Part shown: positions 580-29,967 of the stretch, in pieces
How the letters are laid out: each line of letters opens with the position of its first letter
Numbering within the stretch: position 1 is the stretch's first letter
Origin: a virus
Length of the DNA: 30,237 bases
Virus record (IMG/VR): IMGVR_UViG_3300022871_000079
Span: 1 to 30,237 of that record
Direction: 5' to 3' (one strand)
Program-made: the position numbers and the translations under genes
The notes under the pieces: generated by a model
The model's input: the letters and a program-made list of their open reading frames with translations, nothing else
What the model was told of the DNA's origin: nothing
The model's database searches: none

Positions 580-753
580 TCATCTCTCTTTACCTATAAA
601 CTTTTTATATCCTAGCTCTTTCTCGCTTCTACTATATATTAACCTTTTCTTTGCGTTATATGTGAACCTATCATTGCAATTCTCACAGTAACAGTTGACA
701 AATTCATAAAAGCTGTTCTCTACTAATTCTGATCCGCATTTTTTACATTTCAT
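580..753 (-). CDS. Small zinc-ribbon protein (57 aa)
   Basis: The start overlaps the stop of the replication gene as ATGA, implying translational coupling. The N-terminus reads MKCKKCGSEL, followed by CYCENCNDRF: two CxxC pairs about 18 residues apart, a classic four-cysteine zinc ribbon. The remainder is basic (YNAKKRLIYSRSEKELGYKK), suitable for nucleic-acid contact. No catalytic residues are seen. It may help replication or transcription, but this is inference from position. Confidence 0.65.
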   Translation of the reverse strand: MKCKKCGSELVENSFYEFVNCYCENCNDRFTYNAKKRLIYSRSEKELGYKKFIGKER

Positions 754-1379
754 TTAAACACCTTTTTCTTATTGTTTTTATGCCATTCTATATGTGCATA
801 TGATTCTACTATCTGATGTTCGCTATATGTTCCCTTCAATTTTTCTATGATCTCTCCCTTGCCTGTTATCCCTTGTGCTATCAATAAGTTTATATCTACA
901 TATATCTTCTTATTCTTCTTAGTTGTATTTACATCTTCAGTTACAAATTCATTTTCAATTTCATCTTCAGAGTTTGCTTGTGTTTTTGCTTTAGCAAATT
1001 GAGTAGTTTTACCACCTTTAGAACCAGCTTTTGCTCTTACAATACTAACATTATTATCGTGTATCATCCTCTTTTGTAATAACTTACAATCTTTTACCTG
1101 TAAAACGCCCTCATCTATAAGCTCATGTAAGCTCTTATGGACTATATCAAACGAGTAAGGCATATGCTTAGCAAGCTTGTAAGCAAAATTTTCAACTTGC
1201 TTGGATGTTTGCTTGTCTTTTTGCTTAAGCAAAATAGTGCCATATTCATCTGACTTGTGCATTATACACATGATTCTAATATATACTCCTGTTGATTCAG
1301 CAGAACACTCCATAAGCTTTTCATCTGTTAAAAAGTCTTGCACATATAAAGGTATGTAAGGTTGATTTCTTAAAGCCAT
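750..1379 (-). CDS. DnaD-like phage replication initiation protein
   Basis: The first 45 residues (PYIPLYVQDFLTDEKLMECS, then GVYIRIMCIMHKS and YGTILL) match the N-terminal winged-helix domain of phage replisome organiser and DnaD-like proteins. The middle (about 120-155) is a low-complexity Lys/Gln/Glu linker. The C-terminal tail (YVDINLLIAQGITGKGEI, then a helix with HIEWHKNNKK) is probably the region that binds helicase loader or DNA. These proteins melt or mark the phage origin and recruit the host helicase. At 209 aa it is slightly short for the family. It overlaps its neighbours by 3 and 4 bases, so it is translated as part of the operon that begins at the 1.75-kb promoter. The family is fairly sure, the mechanism inferred. 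Confidence 0.75.
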   Translation of the reverse strand: MALRNQPYIPLYVQDFLTDEKLMECSAESTGVYIRIMCIMHKSDEYGTILLKQKDKQTSKQVENFAYKLAKHMPYSFDIVHKSLHELIDEGVLQVKDCKLLQKRMIHDNNVSIVRAKAGSKGGKTTQFAKAKTQANSEDEIENEFVTEDVNTTKKNKKIYVDINLLIAQGITGKGEIIEKLKGTYSEHQIVESYAHIEWHKNNKKKVFK

Positions 1380-1552
1380 TATTCTTTATCCAATATAGAT
1401 TGTATTTTTTCTTTTAATTCACAAAAACTTGCTTCAACTATCCAATGTTGTGCTTGATCATCATCATCGCACCAATAGTTAACAGCAGATTCTATGGCAT
1501 TAACCAATAACCTAGCTTCTAGTTTTGAAATTGTTAGTTTTATTTTTTCCAT
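1379..1552 (-). CDS. Small acidic hypothetical protein (57 aa), first gene after the structured RNA
   Basis: The protein reads MEKIKLTISKLEARLLVNAI then an acidic patch CDDDDQ, and ends LKEKIQSILDKE. It looks all-helical with no known motif. The binding site is GAGGAACAC-ATG. This site and the start codon (1549-1559) can pair with a strand of the upstream folded RNA at 1640-1650 in 10 of 11 positions, so translation may be controlled by that RNA. Its stop overlaps the DnaD-like start (TAATG), so a block here could also lower replication protein synthesis. Function unknown. Confidence 0.6.
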   Translation of the reverse strand: MEKIKLTISKLEARLLVNAIESAVNYWCDDDDQAQHWIVEASFCELKEKIQSILDKE

Positions 1553-1569
1553 GTGTTCCTCAAATAAGA

Positions 1570-1734
1570 GTTATGGAAGGGCATAGGTCTATGCTATGCC
1601 CAGTTTAAATCTTTGGATTCCATAACATATGGACTAGGTGAAACACAAGGCTCGTCGAGAACGACGGGATTTGATCCTAATCCATAAAGTTTTAATATTT
1701 GTTTTTGCATTGATTTTTCCTTGTGTTTCATGTT
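1570..1734 (-). ncRNA. Structured pseudoknotted RNA, candidate regulatory leader
   Basis: From a start point about 7 bases after the -10 box, the transcript contains several nested and crossing helices visible by eye. Helix A: 1730-1719 with 1650-1639, 12 bp, perfect. Helix B: 1686-1676 with 1638-1628, 11 bp including one G-U. B begins inside the loop of A and its second strand directly follows that of A, so the order is that of a pseudoknot. Hairpin C: CGUCG-UUCU-CGACG inside the loop. Hairpin D: 1626-1618 with 1578-1570 (9 bp), enclosing 1601-1594 with 1586-1579 (8 bp, 7-nt loop) with a one-sided 16-nt insert. A 38-codon ORF (1594-1710) runs through it, but the helices fit RNA function better. 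No match to a known RNA class is claimed. Confidence 0.7.
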
Positions 1735-1740
1735 AAATAT

Positions 1741-1769
1741 ACTATACCATTTTAATGGCTCTTTGTCAA
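1741..1769 (-). promoter_or_regulatory. Sigma-70 promoter for the structured RNA and replication operon
   Basis: The -35 box TTGACA (1769-1764) and -10 box TATAGT (1746-1741) are 17 bases apart. The -35 overlaps the stop codon of the small gene upstream. Within the spacer an inverted repeat CCATT-TT-AATGG (1747-1758) could be an operator for a repressor such as the XRE protein encoded 0.7 kb upstream. The expected start is near 1734, only a few bases before the first helix of the RNA. Confidence 0.8.
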
Positions 1770-1879
1770 ACCTTTTCTGCTATCTTTTTTAGATACTTTG
1801 TCTGTTCTCTTAAATGAGAATGTACTGTTAATCCCCAAAAGAAAAAATACATAGCTGGTAACAATATTAATACTTCCAT
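1766..1879 (-). CDS. Tiny membrane-anchored protein (37 aa)
   Basis: AAAGGAG lies at good spacing before the ATG. Residues 2-18 (EVLILLPAMYFFFWGLT) form one hydrophobic segment, followed by a basic helix (LREQTKYLKKIAEKV). This looks like a single-pass membrane protein with a cytoplasmic tail. It is the last gene before the 1.75-kb promoter, whose -35 box overlaps its stop codon. Function unknown. Confidence 0.55.
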   Translation of the reverse strand: MEVLILLPAMYFFFWGLTVHSHLREQTKYLKKIAEKV

Positions 1880-3024: not shown

Positions 3025-3633
3025 TTAACCTTTCAACACTTGTCTTGTTACGAGTTTACATCCTGCTACCTTGAAATCCCCTTTTAACGCACTTGCAATC
3101 TTGTTCAACCTTATCGTATCAGGTATAAGATATTCCATAGGTAACTGTGTTTTGTCTGTCACTTCTACTGAATAATACGTTGTCATACCTTTGACTTTCA
3201 CCGTTTCAGTAGGTTTTTCAAGCTCTGTTTTCTTCACATCTATCGCTATGCTTTCGGATATATCTACTGTTTTCTCCTGCTTCTGCTCTAGTTCTACAAG
3301 CTCTTTAGCTTTCTGCTCATCAATAACCCTTTGCTTTTCTGCTTCTGCGTTTACATAGGCAACTACAGGATCGTTTATTTCCTTTATCTTGCTGTCTATC
3401 TTGGCAAGCATAGGATTAAAAAGTGCCTGTACTTCTGATTTTGCTTCGTTTAAAGGCTTCACAATACCTTTTCTCCTGTCATCTACTTGCTTTTTTAACC
3501 CTTTCAATGCAGTTATATTCTGCCTCCAGAAAGAACAATCTTCTTCACATTTTACTATTACTGGCTGACTCATCAATCCCTTGTCAACTACTTCTACCTC
3601 AAATCCTTCTATTTCTTGTTTATCATAGTGCAT
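3025..3633 (-). CDS. Coiled-coil protein of the recombination module (DUF1351-like)
   Basis: This 202-residue protein has a long charged central helix (about 50-125: LKKQVDDRRKGIVKPLNEAK, AEKQRVIDEQKAKELVELEQ) and a small C-terminal domain with PDTIRLNKIASALKGDFK. That layout resembles phage DUF1351-type proteins found beside single-strand annealing proteins and exonucleases. The gene overlaps the nuclease gene by 11 bases. It probably assists recombination or replication, perhaps as a scaffold. The family assignment is moderate and the function inferred. Confidence 0.55.
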   Translation of the reverse strand: MHYDKQEIEGFEVEVVDKGLMSQPVIVKCEEDCSFWRQNITALKGLKKQVDDRRKGIVKPLNEAKSEVQALFNPMLAKIDSKIKEINDPVVAYVNAEAEKQRVIDEQKAKELVELEQKQEKTVDISESIAIDVKKTELEKPTETVKVKGMTTYYSVEVTDKTQLPMEYLIPDTIRLNKIASALKGDFKVAGCKLVTRQVLKG

Positions 3634-4177
3634 TTTCTGCCCTTTCGGTTAGCTTGGTTATTAAATTCTCCTGTATCAATTCTTCTATCTTCTCTTTTTT
3701 AGGCTTCAATCCATCTTTATTTAAGTGTATTCTCCACACTTCTTCAACGTCAAAGTCACATAAAAGAGCATATATTCGCATAGCCCACATATGTCCTGTC
3801 GTGCCACTTTTCCAATCGCCCATTATGATTTTGCCATCTATCTCTGCAATAAAGTCCGGAGTTCCTGCAATCTTCCAGTTTAAAGCATATACTGGCTTCT
3901 CTATTGCCATGAATTTAGGCTTGTATTCTTGCAGAAACGCCTCTATTCTGCGATAATATGGTATGAGCCTATCATCTATGCTCGCTTCATCTAAAGTACC
4001 CTTACAAGCCAACTCGGCGATTTTATGGATTGCTTTTCCCTTTGTAGCACACTCATCAATATATGGAGTTCTTATCATAGGCTTCACTATGCCTAATTCA
4101 ACCAACACGTCATTTACTGGTGTTAGTTCAACGCCATCTAATATATACTGATGAGTTTCTTCTATTACTTGGATCAT
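3623..4177 (-). CDS. PD-(D/E)XK exonuclease (Cas4/RecB-like)
   Basis: The 184-residue protein shows the RecB-type nuclease core: H51 in KGKAIHKIAEL, E93 in MAIEKPVYA, D108 in GTPDF, and D121-x-K123 in GDWKSG. These bind the metal ions that cleave DNA. The usual Q-x3-Y motif that follows is altered here (GHMWAMRIYALL keeps the Tyr but has no Gln). In phages such nucleases resect double-strand ends for the partner annealing protein, and the ERF gene overlaps it by 4 bases. A role in end processing for recombination is therefore likely. Direction of resection cannot be told from sequence. Confidence 0.75.
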   Translation of the reverse strand: MIQVIEETHQYILDGVELTPVNDVLVELGIVKPMIRTPYIDECATKGKAIHKIAELACKGTLDEASIDDRLIPYYRRIEAFLQEYKPKFMAIEKPVYALNWKIAGTPDFIAEIDGKIIMGDWKSGTTGHMWAMRIYALLCDFDVEEVWRIHLNKDGLKPKKEKIEELIQENLITKLTERAENAL

Positions 4178-4824
4178 TTGTTTAACCCTGTATATATAGC
4201 TGTTAATTCTGCTTTCGTACAGTTGTTAAAATCTTTTTTGAAATGCTTTTGTGCTAAACTATCAAGCCCTGCTGGACTAAAACCTTTGTCACTAGCTTTT
4301 TCTTTGATGCTCATTACTAGGTCAAGCACTTCATTTACTTCTGCTGTTGGTATCTCTATCTGTTTTTCTGTAGGCTTCTTATAAGCAACTGGCCCTGGAG
4401 ATTGCTGTGTGTAGTCCATAGTATCTGTATCCTTAGTATCATCTATGCAGAATAACCCATTAAGTGCATACTTACGAGCATAAGAACTCGCTGAACCTGT
4501 AATCTGTGCCTGATCCATTGTAGGCTTGCCTTCTCTATTTAGCTTATCTTCTTGCTCTCTTGCATAACCGTCTACTTTTAGCAAGTTCTCGCCATCTGAT
4601 ATTTTAGCTGTTGCCTTTACATAACACCTGCCTCCAACCTCTACCATTTCGTCACTTAATGTTAGTATCAAACTACCCTTTTTCAGTAACGGTTTTACTG
4701 CTTCTAAAATATCCTCGCAAGACCTGTACTTGTAATGTCCGAATTTGTTTTCTCTATTTTTCGGAGCTACAAGCCCTTGTTGAATTCTTCCCAACTTCTC
4801 TGATATTCCGTTCATGTTTTCCAT
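4174..4824 (-). CDS. erf: ERF-family single-strand annealing protein
   Basis: Residues 1-135 match the ERF domain: FGHYKYRSCEDILEAVKPLL near the front, LILTLSDEMVEVGGRCYVKA, and the highly conserved block QITGSASSYARKYALNGLF followed by CIDDTKDTD. ERF proteins form rings on single-stranded DNA and anneal complementary strands, allowing phage recombination and genome circularisation. The C-terminal 70 residues are a linker and small helical domain. The gene is first in an operon with its own near-consensus promoter and a GAGGTGACAAA binding site, and overlaps the nuclease gene that follows. Confidence 0.88.
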   Translation of the reverse strand: MENMNGISEKLGRIQQGLVAPKNRENKFGHYKYRSCEDILEAVKPLLKKGSLILTLSDEMVEVGGRCYVKATAKISDGENLLKVDGYAREQEDKLNREGKPTMDQAQITGSASSYARKYALNGLFCIDDTKDTDTMDYTQQSPGPVAYKKPTEKQIEIPTAEVNEVLDLVMSIKEKASDKGFSPAGLDSLAQKHFKKDFNNCTKAELTAIYTGLNK

Positions 4825-8280: not shown

Positions 8281-8633
8281 GTTTTATACCCATTTACTCT
8301 GCCAAGACCTTTTGTAACTTCGTCTAAACTATTACTTACTTTTAGATGATCCTCTGTGTTCTTCTCTGTCATAGTAGTTATTATAGCCATTTGAGCAAGA
8401 TGTTCTGTCTTAACAAAAGTCATATAACTTTTCTGTCCATTAGTATTGTTGTCAATAGATTCTGATAATTTGTTTATAATCTCAACAGTATTTTCAATAG
8501 CCTTTGAATTTTTATCTAAACCAAGATTAAAGCGGTTAGTATTGTTTATTACCATCCAAGTTAATAATGCGAAAGCTCCTACTCCTAAACCAACCTTACT
8601 TATTGCTTCAAGACATTGTATTATTACTGCCAC
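8277..8633 (-). CDS. Single-pass membrane protein with coiled-coil tail (118 aa)
   Basis: It starts at GTG (8633) after AGGAGG at 5 bases. Residues 12-29 (KVGLGVGAFALLTWMVIN) form one membrane span. The rest is a polar helix (LDKNSKAIENTVEIINKLSE, then LKVSNSLDEVTKGLGRVN). This shape fits a small holin of the BhlA type or the inner-membrane half of a spanin pair; it overlaps the lipoprotein start by 4 bases, which favours a joint function. The evidence is topology and context only. Confidence 0.55.
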   Translation of the reverse strand: MAVIIQCLEAISKVGLGVGAFALLTWMVINNTNRFNLGLDKNSKAIENTVEIINKLSESIDNNTNGQKSYMTFVKTEHLAQMAIITTMTEKNTEDHLKVSNSLDEVTKGLGRVNGYKT

Positions 8634-11307: not shown

Positions 11308-12126
11308 TTATTGGTTTCCTATTGCTGTTATACTTACCGAATCTGCGTCTGTTCTTGTTCCGGCATTATTTTGTGTTATAATATCAATATCGCCTGCTGT
11401 TTTAGCTGCTGCTCCACCAGTATCTAAACTTACGAATGAACCTTCTGCATACCCACCTGACCAGGAATAAAAGGCATTCGCAAAGTCTATATCCCAAGTT
11501 ATCGTATAATCTCCTACACCATTATCTACTATAGCATCAACATTGTAACTATCTTTTATTGCTATTGTTCCTGTACCGTCAAAGTTTATCCAACCTTGTA
11601 CTGGATTATTTGGTACAGAACTTTTCTGTGTTGAGGATATATCTCCACTACCATCATTATACATTCTTCCTATTAGTTTGCCATACGTCACCCCATCAGG
11701 AGCAGACGCACTCAAAGAAAATACTGCTGTATACGTTGTGCTTGCTCCATCTCCAACTAACCAAACATAATACCATGTTGAATTAGCTTCTGCTCCTGTA
11801 TCTAAATTTGCCGATAGAGTTATTTGTAAGGCAGAAGAATTTCTTTTTATTACATAATCATTTCCACTATACATAACCAAAGTCTTGGCTTCTATCTCTA
11901 TTGTATCTGCATCAATCCACGTTATTTTTGGAACAGGGTCTAACATATCCCTAAACAAGTTAGTCAACGCAGAGTTCTTGCTCTGTGCATTACCACTCGC
12001 ACCTAAATAAGTCTGTATTGCTTCTGTTTCGTCATATACTGTATTCCATAATACAGCTTCTACATACGTTGTACCATCTACAACTTGCGTAAACGTCTTT
12101 TTACTTAATGGAAAACTTGCTGCCAT
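11308..12126 (-). CDS. Tail fibre or receptor-binding-type structural protein (272 aa)
   Basis: The N-terminus (FPLSKKTFTQVVDGTTYVEA then WNTVYDETEAIQTYLG) is typical of phage fibre attachment regions. The C-terminus carries GWINFDGTGTIAIKDSYNVD and DNGVGDYTITWDIDFANAFY, a domain common at the tips of many tail fibres. It is rich in beta residues with no enzyme motif. It probably binds the baseplate and a surface receptor. No signal peptide is seen, unlike the next fibre gene. Confidence 0.7.
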   Translation of the reverse strand: MAASFPLSKKTFTQVVDGTTYVEAVLWNTVYDETEAIQTYLGASGNAQSKNSALTNLFRDMLDPVPKITWIDADTIEIEAKTLVMYSGNDYVIKRNSSALQITLSANLDTGAEANSTWYYVWLVGDGASTTYTAVFSLSASAPDGVTYGKLIGRMYNDGSGDISSTQKSSVPNNPVQGWINFDGTGTIAIKDSYNVDAIVDNGVGDYTITWDIDFANAFYSWSGGYAEGSFVSLDTGGAAAKTAGDIDIITQNNAGTRTDADSVSITAIGNQ

Positions 12127-20361: not shown

Positions 20362-20645
20362 ACTACTATATCCTTGTTTAAATCTTCATCTGTACTATCA
20401 GCTACCTTTATTGTTCGTGTCTTCATCTCTTGAGCAAACTTATCACCCTGTTTCATTGCATCTAACGAGTATTTCTTCTCTATTACACCTTTAACTGATG
20501 CTGCAACTTCCATTATCTCTTTTTTCGGTGCGTTAAACACATTGTCAATATCAATAGCCTGTATCAAAGTATCTATGTTCTTATTCAAAGATTCTTCGAT
20601 TATATTCATATCATCTAGGTGTTTCAGTACGATCTTATCTAACAT
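20358..20645 (-). CDS. Hypothetical helical protein of the neck region (95 aa)
   Basis: It is helical and acidic (LKHLDDMNIIEESLNKNIDT, then PKKEIMEVAASVKGVIEKKY). No motif is recognised. It overlaps the glycosyltransferase gene by 11 bases and the neck gene by 4, so translation is coupled. It could be a head-tail connector component by position. Function unknown. Confidence 0.55.
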   Translation of the reverse strand: MLDKIVLKHLDDMNIIEESLNKNIDTLIQAIDIDNVFNAPKKEIMEVAASVKGVIEKKYSLDAMKQGDKFAQEMKTRTIKVADSTDEDLNKDIVV

Positions 20646-21366
20646 TTCTATACTTCTTTTCTTTTTTACCCCACTTCTTTACGAAGTCGGCACGTCTTTC
20701 TTTTGAACTTGTCATATACTTATCGTGACCCATTTCTCTGATAGATGAGTTCACTTCGTGATAATACTTGCCACTTGCTGTATTCATTCCAACAACCCAT
20801 TGCTTTATCTTAGCTTCACACATCTGCATATAAAAGTCTGTTTCTTCCCATCCATATCCTGCTTTATTAAAACATCCGTATTCAGGAAACCTTATATCAT
20901 GCTTATCTAATACATTTTTTCTAAATATACCATAATATGCTATTGACTGCTGTTGTACCTGTGGCTCAAACAACGTATGACAATATATCTCATGGTGTGT
21001 AGCTTGTCCTTCTCGATTCTTCTGGTTCGTGTATTTATTAGCATAGAACCCTATCGCATCACAGTCTTCATGTTCATCAAGATATTCTATTAGCTTATTT
21101 ATGCTATTTGGTACTGGTACTGTGTCGCCATCTAAAATCAACACATATTCGCCTTGACTTAGCTCGAGTGCTTGGTTCTTTCCTACTGATACACCTTTAT
21201 TCTCGAAATTACAGACTGTAGCCATTTCACAACATCCGTCAGTTGATCCGTTATCTACTACAATTATCTCGTTATGTATATCTCTCAAATCTTCTTTCAA
21301 TATAAGCAACGTATCAAACAACGTTGACATATTGTTCCATGTTAGTATATTAACTGATATTTTCAT
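20635..21366 (-). CDS. Family-2 glycosyltransferase inside the connector module (243 aa)
   Basis: The GT-A fold is clear: SVNILTWNNMSTLFDTLLIL at the start, EIIVVDNGSTDGCCEMATVC (nucleotide-binding DNGSTDG), GVSVGKNQALELSQGEYVLI and the metal-binding LDGDTVP (a DxD). Later YGWEETDFYMQMCEAK supplies the usual acceptor-site acidic pair ED/E-T-D. It transfers a sugar from a nucleotide donor. It is full-length. Its genes overlap by 4 and 11 bases with connector genes, so it is expressed as a late structural-operon protein. It may glycosylate virion proteins, DNA or the host surface; the target is not shown by sequence. Confidence 0.88.
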   Translation of the reverse strand: MKISVNILTWNNMSTLFDTLLILKEDLRDIHNEIIVVDNGSTDGCCEMATVCNFENKGVSVGKNQALELSQGEYVLILDGDTVPVPNSINKLIEYLDEHEDCDAIGFYANKYTNQKNREGQATHHEIYCHTLFEPQVQQQSIAYYGIFRKNVLDKHDIRFPEYGCFNKAGYGWEETDFYMQMCEAKIKQWVVGMNTASGKYYHEVNSSIREMGHDKYMTSSKERRADFVKKWGKKEKKYRNVR

Positions 21367-29232: not shown

Positions 29233-29423
29233 ATCCTTCCCCTTAATATCTTCCAAGCCATTATACATCTTTGCTTAAGAGATAGTTGTTGTAAGTTTAA
29301 ACGTGCTTCTAGTTTCAGTTGCTTCTTTGTGTCTACAACGTGTTCTTTTAAAGCATTTTTAAGCTCTTTTTTCTTTGACTTTAGTCTTTTACCCTTAGTT
29401 CCTCCTTTTAAATTCATCTTCAT
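29229..29423 (-). CDS. Small basic protein (64 aa)
   Basis: The start is one of two Met codons (29423 or 29417) inside the end of the glycosyltransferase gene, so translation is probably coupled to it. The protein is strongly basic (KGKRLKSKKKELKNALKEHV, then LKLEARLNLQQLSLKQRC) and ends AWKILRGRI. Amphipathic helices are likely. It might bind nucleic acid or the membrane; function unknown. Confidence 0.5.
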   Translation of the reverse strand: MKMNLKGGTKGKRLKSKKKELKNALKEHVVDTKKQLKLEARLNLQQLSLKQRCIMAWKILRGRI

Positions 29424-29967
29424 CAGGTTTCCACAACTCCATTATATTCTTGCCTTTATGGTCATGGAATACTTTCGCTGTTTCACAGTACACATAACCC
29501 TTGTCTTTTGCTCTGAAATACAGGTCATCATCACAGAAGTAATGTTTAAACGCTGTATCATACCATATCCCGTTTAGCTTTTCTTCAATAAACTTCTTTG
29601 TTGTTAATGTCACGCACGCTTTTGAGCCTTTCCAATTACGCATCTCGTTTAAGCATACCATTCCATATCCATCTTTAAAAAACTTATCAAAACACATCTT
29701 TGCTTCTGTCAACCAAAACATTATAGGGAAATGGTCATCACAAAATGCTGTTACAAAGTCACCTTTAGATGCTTCATACCCTAGTTTTATCTGTGACGTT
29801 ATCATATCGCCACCGTTTACTATTGTCACATCTTCATATGGCTCTACTGGTAAATCTCCTGCATTGACTACTATTATCTCATACCTTACAAAGGTGTTCT
29901 TCTGTATTGTTGCTATGCACGTCTTTAACGTACTACTGTTTTTTGTTACTACTATTATTGATACCAT
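29395..29967 (-). CDS. Family-2 glycosyltransferase (190 aa)
   Basis: MVSIIVVTKNSSTLKTCIAT begins the nucleotide-binding half of a GT-A fold, with YEIIVVNAGDLP in place of the usual DNGSTDG, and FVTAFCDDHFPIMFW carrying the DD(H) metal site. Later YFCDDDLYFRAKDKG is the acceptor-side acidic motif. At 190 aa it is a short enzyme. It overlaps the previous glycosyltransferase by 35 bases. Together they may add sugars to virion protein, DNA or the host surface. The donor and acceptor are not shown. Confidence 0.8.
   Translation of the reverse strand: MVSIIVVTKNSSTLKTCIATIQKNTFVRYEIIVVNAGDLPVEPYEDVTIVNGGDMITSQIKLGYEASKGDFVTAFCDDHFPIMFWLTEAKMCFDKFFKDGYGMVCLNEMRNWKGSKACVTLTTKKFIEEKLNGIWYDTAFKHYFCDDDLYFRAKDKGYVYCETAKVFHDHKGKNIMELWKPDEDEFKRRN

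Follow-up and report, generated by a model that had tools for sequence, protein, structure and literature searches.

In the attenuators of the trp and pyrBI type and in the leaders of the IncB and IncIalpha rep genes, the translation of a leader open reading frame (ORF) decides whether a terminator or a pseudoknot forms ahead of the biosynthetic or replication gene. In phage P4, the expression of the replication genes is controlled through premature termination (PMC4825925). The P4 CI leader carries seqA (8651, just ahead of the ATG), which is complementary to seqB (8464), located inside a 17-bp stem-loop (8502/8441). The IsrK-orf45-anrP region of the Gifsy-1 prophage contains a short leader ORF whose ribosome site is paired with its own downstream part, and whose translation is coupled to that of the next gene through an AUGA stop/start overlap (PMC4825925). 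The amino acids of orf45 are variable and a terminator yields a short RNA; IsrK activates the antirepressor gene in trans, and its nucleotide sequence is conserved (PMC4825925). The ribosome sites of the Q-beta A2 gene and the MS2 maturation gene are open only until their complement has been synthesised, which limits expression to the nascent RNA (PMC6071253).

The locus described here lies in a stretch of 30,237 nucleotides of a virus (IMG/VR record IMGVR_UViG_3300022871_000079), referred to as the window. It encodes a leader RNA which, together with its counterparts in related loci, looks like a common RNA brake, previously unrecorded, on the replication of phage DNA.

The pseudoknotted leader of the window

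An initial annotation, made from the letters of the window, proposed a pseudoknotted RNA with helices of 12, 11, and 17 bp, and each of these was found on the minus strand at the positions given there. The first helix joins strand 1a (UGAAACACAAGG; 1719..1730, minus strand), at the 5' end of the RNA, to strand 1b (CCUUGUGUUUCA; 1639..1650, minus strand), through 12 Watson-Crick pairs (1730-1719 with 1650-1639). The second joins strand 2a (UAUGGAUUAGG; 1676..1686, minus strand) to strand 2b (CCUAGUCCAUA; 1628..1638, minus strand) over 11 positions (1686-1676 with 1638-1628), ten of them Watson-Crick pairs and one a U-G pair, in pseudoknot order, so that 1b, the anti-ribosome-site strand, is located in the loop of 2a:2b. 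A small hairpin between 2a and 1b (CGUCG-UUCU-CGACG; 1653..1666, minus strand) is part of the minimum free energy fold. The third helix is an interrupted 3' hairpin of 17 bp (1561..1626, minus strand; -20.8 kcal/mol), composed of segments of 9 bp (1626-1618/1578-1570) and 8 bp (1601-1594/1586-1579) and followed by UCUUAUUUG, which is a probable terminator.

The 1a:1b repeat is the only 12-bp inverted repeat of the window at a distance of 150 nt or less, and when the 186-nt region was shuffled, a helix of this length appeared in 3 of 1000 cases and the pseudoknot score was reached in none of 500. Shuffling of the 600 nt that precede the replication gene gave a pseudoknot as good in 0 of 40 cases, and the nested fold of 1734-1561 has an energy of -46.7 kcal/mol (z = -5.0).

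The element is preceded by a promoter (TTGACA-17 nt-TATAGT; 1741..1769, minus strand) that agrees with the consensus at 11 of 12 positions, with a TG ahead of the -10 box, and which predicts a transcription start near 1734. The leader ORF of 38 aa (MQKQILKLYGLGSNPVVLDEPCVSPSPYVMESKDLNWA; 1594..1710, minus strand) has its Shine-Dalgarno (SD)-like AAGG inside 1a, crosses 2a, 1b, and 2b, and ends at a stop codon inside the 5' arm of the 3' hairpin, 44 nt from the next start, a looser arrangement than in the relatives described below. The next gene is an ORF of 57 aa (1379..1552, minus strand), for which searches of Pfam and PHROG returned no matches. Its stop is overlapped by the gene of a DnaD-like replication protein of the primosomal or replisome-organizer type (750..1379, minus strand), whose PHROG matches are weak (E 9e-4 and 1.6e-3), and which has relatives with 50-73% identity.

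The 3' hairpin has an imperfect U tract and was not called in a simple terminator scan of the window. There is no U tract after 2b, and termination in the window would fall to this next hairpin, 3' of 2b. A trp-like antiterminator, 2b:3a (UCCAUA/UAUGGA), is possible in the window, but is much weaker than the terminator hairpin.

Elsewhere on the same strand, upstream of the leader, the window carries a recombination cassette (3025-4824, minus strand) with a Gp157-like protein, an exonuclease (phrog_298), and an ERF single-strand annealing protein. A protein with an Mtd second domain (PF21916), from a family that includes the targets of diversity-generating retroelements, is encoded at 11308-12126 (minus strand). 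Two family-2 glycosyltransferase matches, the second below the Pfam cut-off, were found within the phage structural region (20635-21366 and 29395-29967, minus strand), and are possibly involved in the modification of the DNA or the capsid.

Recurrence upstream of phage replication genes

Direct sequence searches recovered no homologues of the window's own RNA or of the 57-aa protein. Relatives were collected through the DnaD-like gene, and 100 such loci (numbered with the prefix L) were read over the 600 nt that precede it. The strand order 1a-2a-1b-2b recurs upstream of many of the related replication genes in unrelated letters, as in L053 (GGCTAGATACAC / AATCCTCCTCGG / GTGTGTCTAGCC / CCGAGGGGGATT-TTT) and L074 (TGTAATCATAAA / TTGCCCGTGCAG / TTTATGATTACA / CTGCACGGGCAA-TTTTTTTT). 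Of the 99 loci in which the replication gene is related, approximately 26 carry the element, directly behind a promoter; this list was curated by eye, and the scanner accepted G-U pairs. Roughly three in four loci of the dnaD type have no such element within 700 nt. The architecture was then tested with the requirement of an ORF close by and of a U tract, but not of a promoter. Shuffles predicted 0.27 loci at a threshold of -36 kcal/mol and 0.65 at -34 kcal/mol, and the numbers found among the 99 were 15 and 18. The window passed the pseudoknot test and failed the one with the U tract, since the hairpin that resembles a terminator is here the one after 2b. One apparent carrier, L063, proved to be a false positive that encodes a membrane protein, and was removed, and a single-stem test of the start sites was too noisy in the GC-rich loci.

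The layout of the relatives follows the order promoter-1a-ORF-2a-1b-2b. The promoter (of the sigma-70 or TAnnTTTG type, by eye) is just upstream, 1a lies over the start region of the leader ORF, and the terminator-like hairpin 2a:2b, whose loop carries 1b, is followed by U-rich tracts. In most of the relatives the leader ORF overlaps a putative intrinsic terminator, which is imperfect in the window. An ATG within -10..+25 of the end of 1a, with a frame that reaches 2a, was found in 28 of 36 leaders (13.6 expected), and the frame extends past 2b in 24 of the 36 (5.5 expected). The leader stops are located mostly 7-26 nt beyond 2b, and -8..+5 nt from the next start. Shorter leaders stop close to 2a in L055, L066, and L360, and no ATG leader was found near 1a in the carriers L071 and L118. 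L128 has a leader frame that continues into the replication gene as a fusion, and in L358 and L359, as judged by reading the sequence, the leader frame is open and in frame with this gene; in these three loci, the leader would be an N-terminal extension of the replication protein.

The association is not restricted to one gene family. A nearly identical copy of the L067 leader precedes a replication gene of another, DUF1376-like kind, and the same architecture was found upstream of the relatives of this gene in approximately 11 of 18 non-identical loci. A strict scan of the 2.66 Mb of collected sequence gave, among its strongest matches, loci of the DUF1376-like gene and L233, on a contig collected for an unrelated reason, in which the gene after the leader is a third family, the PHROG 2514 DnaD-like helicase loader (E 6e-31). 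The element therefore goes with three kinds of replication gene. In the L341-L348 clade, another conserved element (GTAATCGGGTTGCTTAGGCATAAGCGT...GCACGTT...AACGTGC) is found upstream of the DUF1376-like gene in place of the pseudoknot leader. The same leader architecture is found in L127, on the upstream side of the dnaD-like gene and 1474 nt from it, ahead of an operon that begins with a gene (MGELAKIKSFRT..., 300+ aa) containing a DPPWNYGRKY motif like that of the MT-A70-type methylases, which suggests that the operons behind such leaders can be longer.

The statement that no named RNA class has this layout was borne out, given that no Rfam family, including the C4 antisense RNA, matched above its gathering score, that a permissive Rfam search of window positions 1500-1800 returned chance-level matches only, and that no description of the layout was found in the literature. 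A search with the pattern ATCAGGTGGAG-N7-CTCC found only the two members already known. In eight cultivated phages whose DnaD-like loader is related, the element was absent (z from -0.9 to 1.3), and no laboratory phage that has it is thus known from the present work. Another sequence, MT837034, also has no element, and its upstream gene resembles an SSB.

The relatives also bear on the part of the initial annotation that concerned the 57-aa gene, in which 1b would alternate between 1a and the start site of this gene (1549..1559, minus strand) as a two-state switch, with the 5' end of the RNA acting as a decoy of that start. The count of 10 pairs in 11 positions, between 1650-1640 and 1559-1549, is correct, but at the level of chance, as 41 sites on the strand pair equally well or better, and the duplex is no better than in shuffles (z = -0.8). 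When a third pairing site at the start of the next gene, comparable to seqC of P4, was sought in 28 leaders, no convincing case was found in the relatives and the overall level was that of chance, and the candidate was rejected. The likeness between the 1a region and the 57-aa start region stems from the fact that both are A/G-rich ribosome sites, and in the relatives 1a is not a decoy, but the ribosome-entry region of the short leader ORF. Strand 1b would lock the leader ORF and not the 57-aa gene, and the two-state switch is considered very unlikely.

Compensatory change and proposed mode of action

Covariation was assessed in small alignments. Comparison of L067, L069, and L336 with L339, plus L108, gave five pairs in which both sides had changed (1.8 expected), three of them in 1a:1b. 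Eight such pairs were found among L351, L352, L353, and L355, four of them in helix 1, a total for the whole structure that was reached in 0 of 500 shuffles, with values of 1-2 in slid controls. In L360 and L362, which are otherwise 92% identical, GTATCCG/CGGATAC is replaced by GTGTCCG/CGGACAC, that is, A-U by G-C. In L054 and L104, the hairpin CATCAGGTGGAG...CTCC is kept, and its 7-nt loop has been replaced jointly with the upstream partner, 1a. The wholesale replacement of letters across unrelated leaders is a stronger argument than this covariation.

Alternatively, the 38-aa ORF could encode an ordinary small protein, with the pairing incidental, as its SD and start are good and the frame is open. 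The initial annotation held that its RNA would be refuted by codon-constrained substitutions in the 38-aa frame, with no compensatory changes in the helices, and the reverse was found. The helices are compensated, and the leader peptides are unconserved and unrelated between loci, with only the openness of the frame maintained; L353 and L355, for example, use different frames in the middle of the leader, both of them open and both ending in UGAUG, with the pairing kept. An ordinary gene is thus extremely unlikely. Replication genes are often found near origins, and inverted repeats can be features of the DNA as well, which would fit a replication origin or a set of protein-binding repeats. The pseudoknot order, the upstream promoter, the U tract that follows, and the in-frame ORF nevertheless point to an RNA of the transcript strand, as do the G-U pairs of this strand (23 interior G-U against 4 A-C, a selection-biased count), and a DNA element appears very unlikely.

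The most likely function is that of an attenuator which depends on translation and has a ribosome site that locks itself, and by which the synthesis of the replication protein is limited. Transcription would begin at or slightly before 1a. As long as 1a is unpaired, a ribosome may enter the leader ORF, trail the RNA polymerase through 2a, and hold the terminator-like hairpin open, passing to the next gene by coupling when it reaches the leader stop. Once 1b has been made and is free of ribosomes, it would pair with 1a and shut the ribosome site. The lock and the terminator can coexist, because 1b sits in the 2a:2b loop, and would form jointly as a single pseudoknot, leaving an untranslated leader both locked and terminated. 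Only the first ribosome or ribosomes on each nascent transcript would count, and the replication protein would be small in amount and self-limited. Termination, the race between the ribosome and the folding, the coupling, and the purpose are what we infer from the arrangement of the helices and frames. On balance, it is probable that the element is a cis-acting leader RNA, through which the expression of the phage replication gene depends on how promptly a short, disposable leader ORF is translated, and the design for translational control ahead of a replication gene put forward in the initial annotation is supported to this extent.

A trans-acting RNA would account for some of the same features. 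In this case, the terminated short RNA, or a processed fragment that contains 1b, would pair with the 1a of other nascent transcripts and shut them off, setting the copy number or excluding related phages, in the manner of P4 CI, c4, or plasmid copy control. The topology is equal to the seqA-stem-seqB-stem order of the P4 leader, and some members (L078, L128, L360, and L362) adopt a kissing form, in which both strands lie in hairpin loops. In the closest homologues, 1a and 1b are the fastest-changing part and remain complementary (6/16 against 8/82 in L336 and L339, p=0.010; likewise in L353 and L355, p=0.04), as expected of a site that determines specificity. Against this, no target copy beyond 1a was found, and 1b is already paired in cis. 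Tyrosine integrases were found in 1-2 of 28 carriers and in 13 of 48 non-carriers (p=0.013 or 0.04), and serine recombinases in 0 of 28 carriers, all counted on contigs that are fragments; this rarity of integrases disfavours a role in lysogenic immunity, on moderate evidence. Action in trans is considered rather unlikely overall. A broader proposal, of a widespread leader RNA class defined by topology, in which the fast-diversifying 1a:1b is a code for self-recognition in trans and the RNA of each replicating genome shuts the replication-gene leaders with the matching code, is doubtful, and would imply copy-number control and the exclusion of close kin in phages that have no integrases.

The cis-acting attenuator, if correct, would add a widely shared level of control to the replication of phage DNA. 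Such leaders are missed by sequence-based RNA family searches, given that only the pairing pattern is conserved, and further cases might be sought by the combination of a promoter, a ribosome site, a leader ORF, and a terminator whose loop is complementary to the ribosome site.

Comparison with known leader RNAs

Two further comparisons can be set aside. An HDV-like ribozyme has the same strand order, but helix 1 varies from 6 to 15 bp in the present elements, the joining stretches are long, and there is no conserved core or Rfam match. Programmed frameshifting at the overlap of the leader and dnaD is likewise rejected, as the junction is downstream of the pseudoknot.

The P4 CI leader is similar in being the leader of a phage replication operon with the 1a-2a-1b-2b order. 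It differs in having a third copy, seqC, at 8384, which is absent here, and a processed CI RNA that acts in the prophage, whereas the present carriers seldom have an integrase. In addition, stem 2 of the present element is itself terminator-like, its strands are closer, and there is no sequence similarity. The relatives share with IsrK-orf45 a leader ORF with a variable peptide, a stop at the next start (44 nt off in the window), and a self-paired ribosome site, but they precede replication genes, with no sequence conservation and no antirepressor target gene. The element is thus not a member of either the P4 CI or the IsrK-orf45 group, as it departs from each of them in some of the tested features.

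The loose parallel with the c4 RNA drawn in the initial annotation is fair, and extends to phage RNAs of the P4 type. The c4 RNA of P1 and P7 (Rfam C4 antisense RNA) likewise originates in phages and carries loops that are complementary to a ribosome site, although it acts in trans on the ant mRNA, and the present element has no Rfam match. The trp and pyrBI-type attenuators differ in their regulatory codons, none of which were found in the present leaders, and the IncB and IncIalpha rep leaders in that the present pseudoknot locks the leader's own ribosome site, rather than activating rep. The Q-beta A2 and MS2 genes have the same timing lock of the ribosome site, but belong to RNA phages, and have no terminator, leader ORF, or pseudoknot formed with a terminator. 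The cis-acting reading would connect the leader logic of P4 and IsrK, and the folding lock of Q-beta and MS2, to ordinary, probably non-lysogenic phages.
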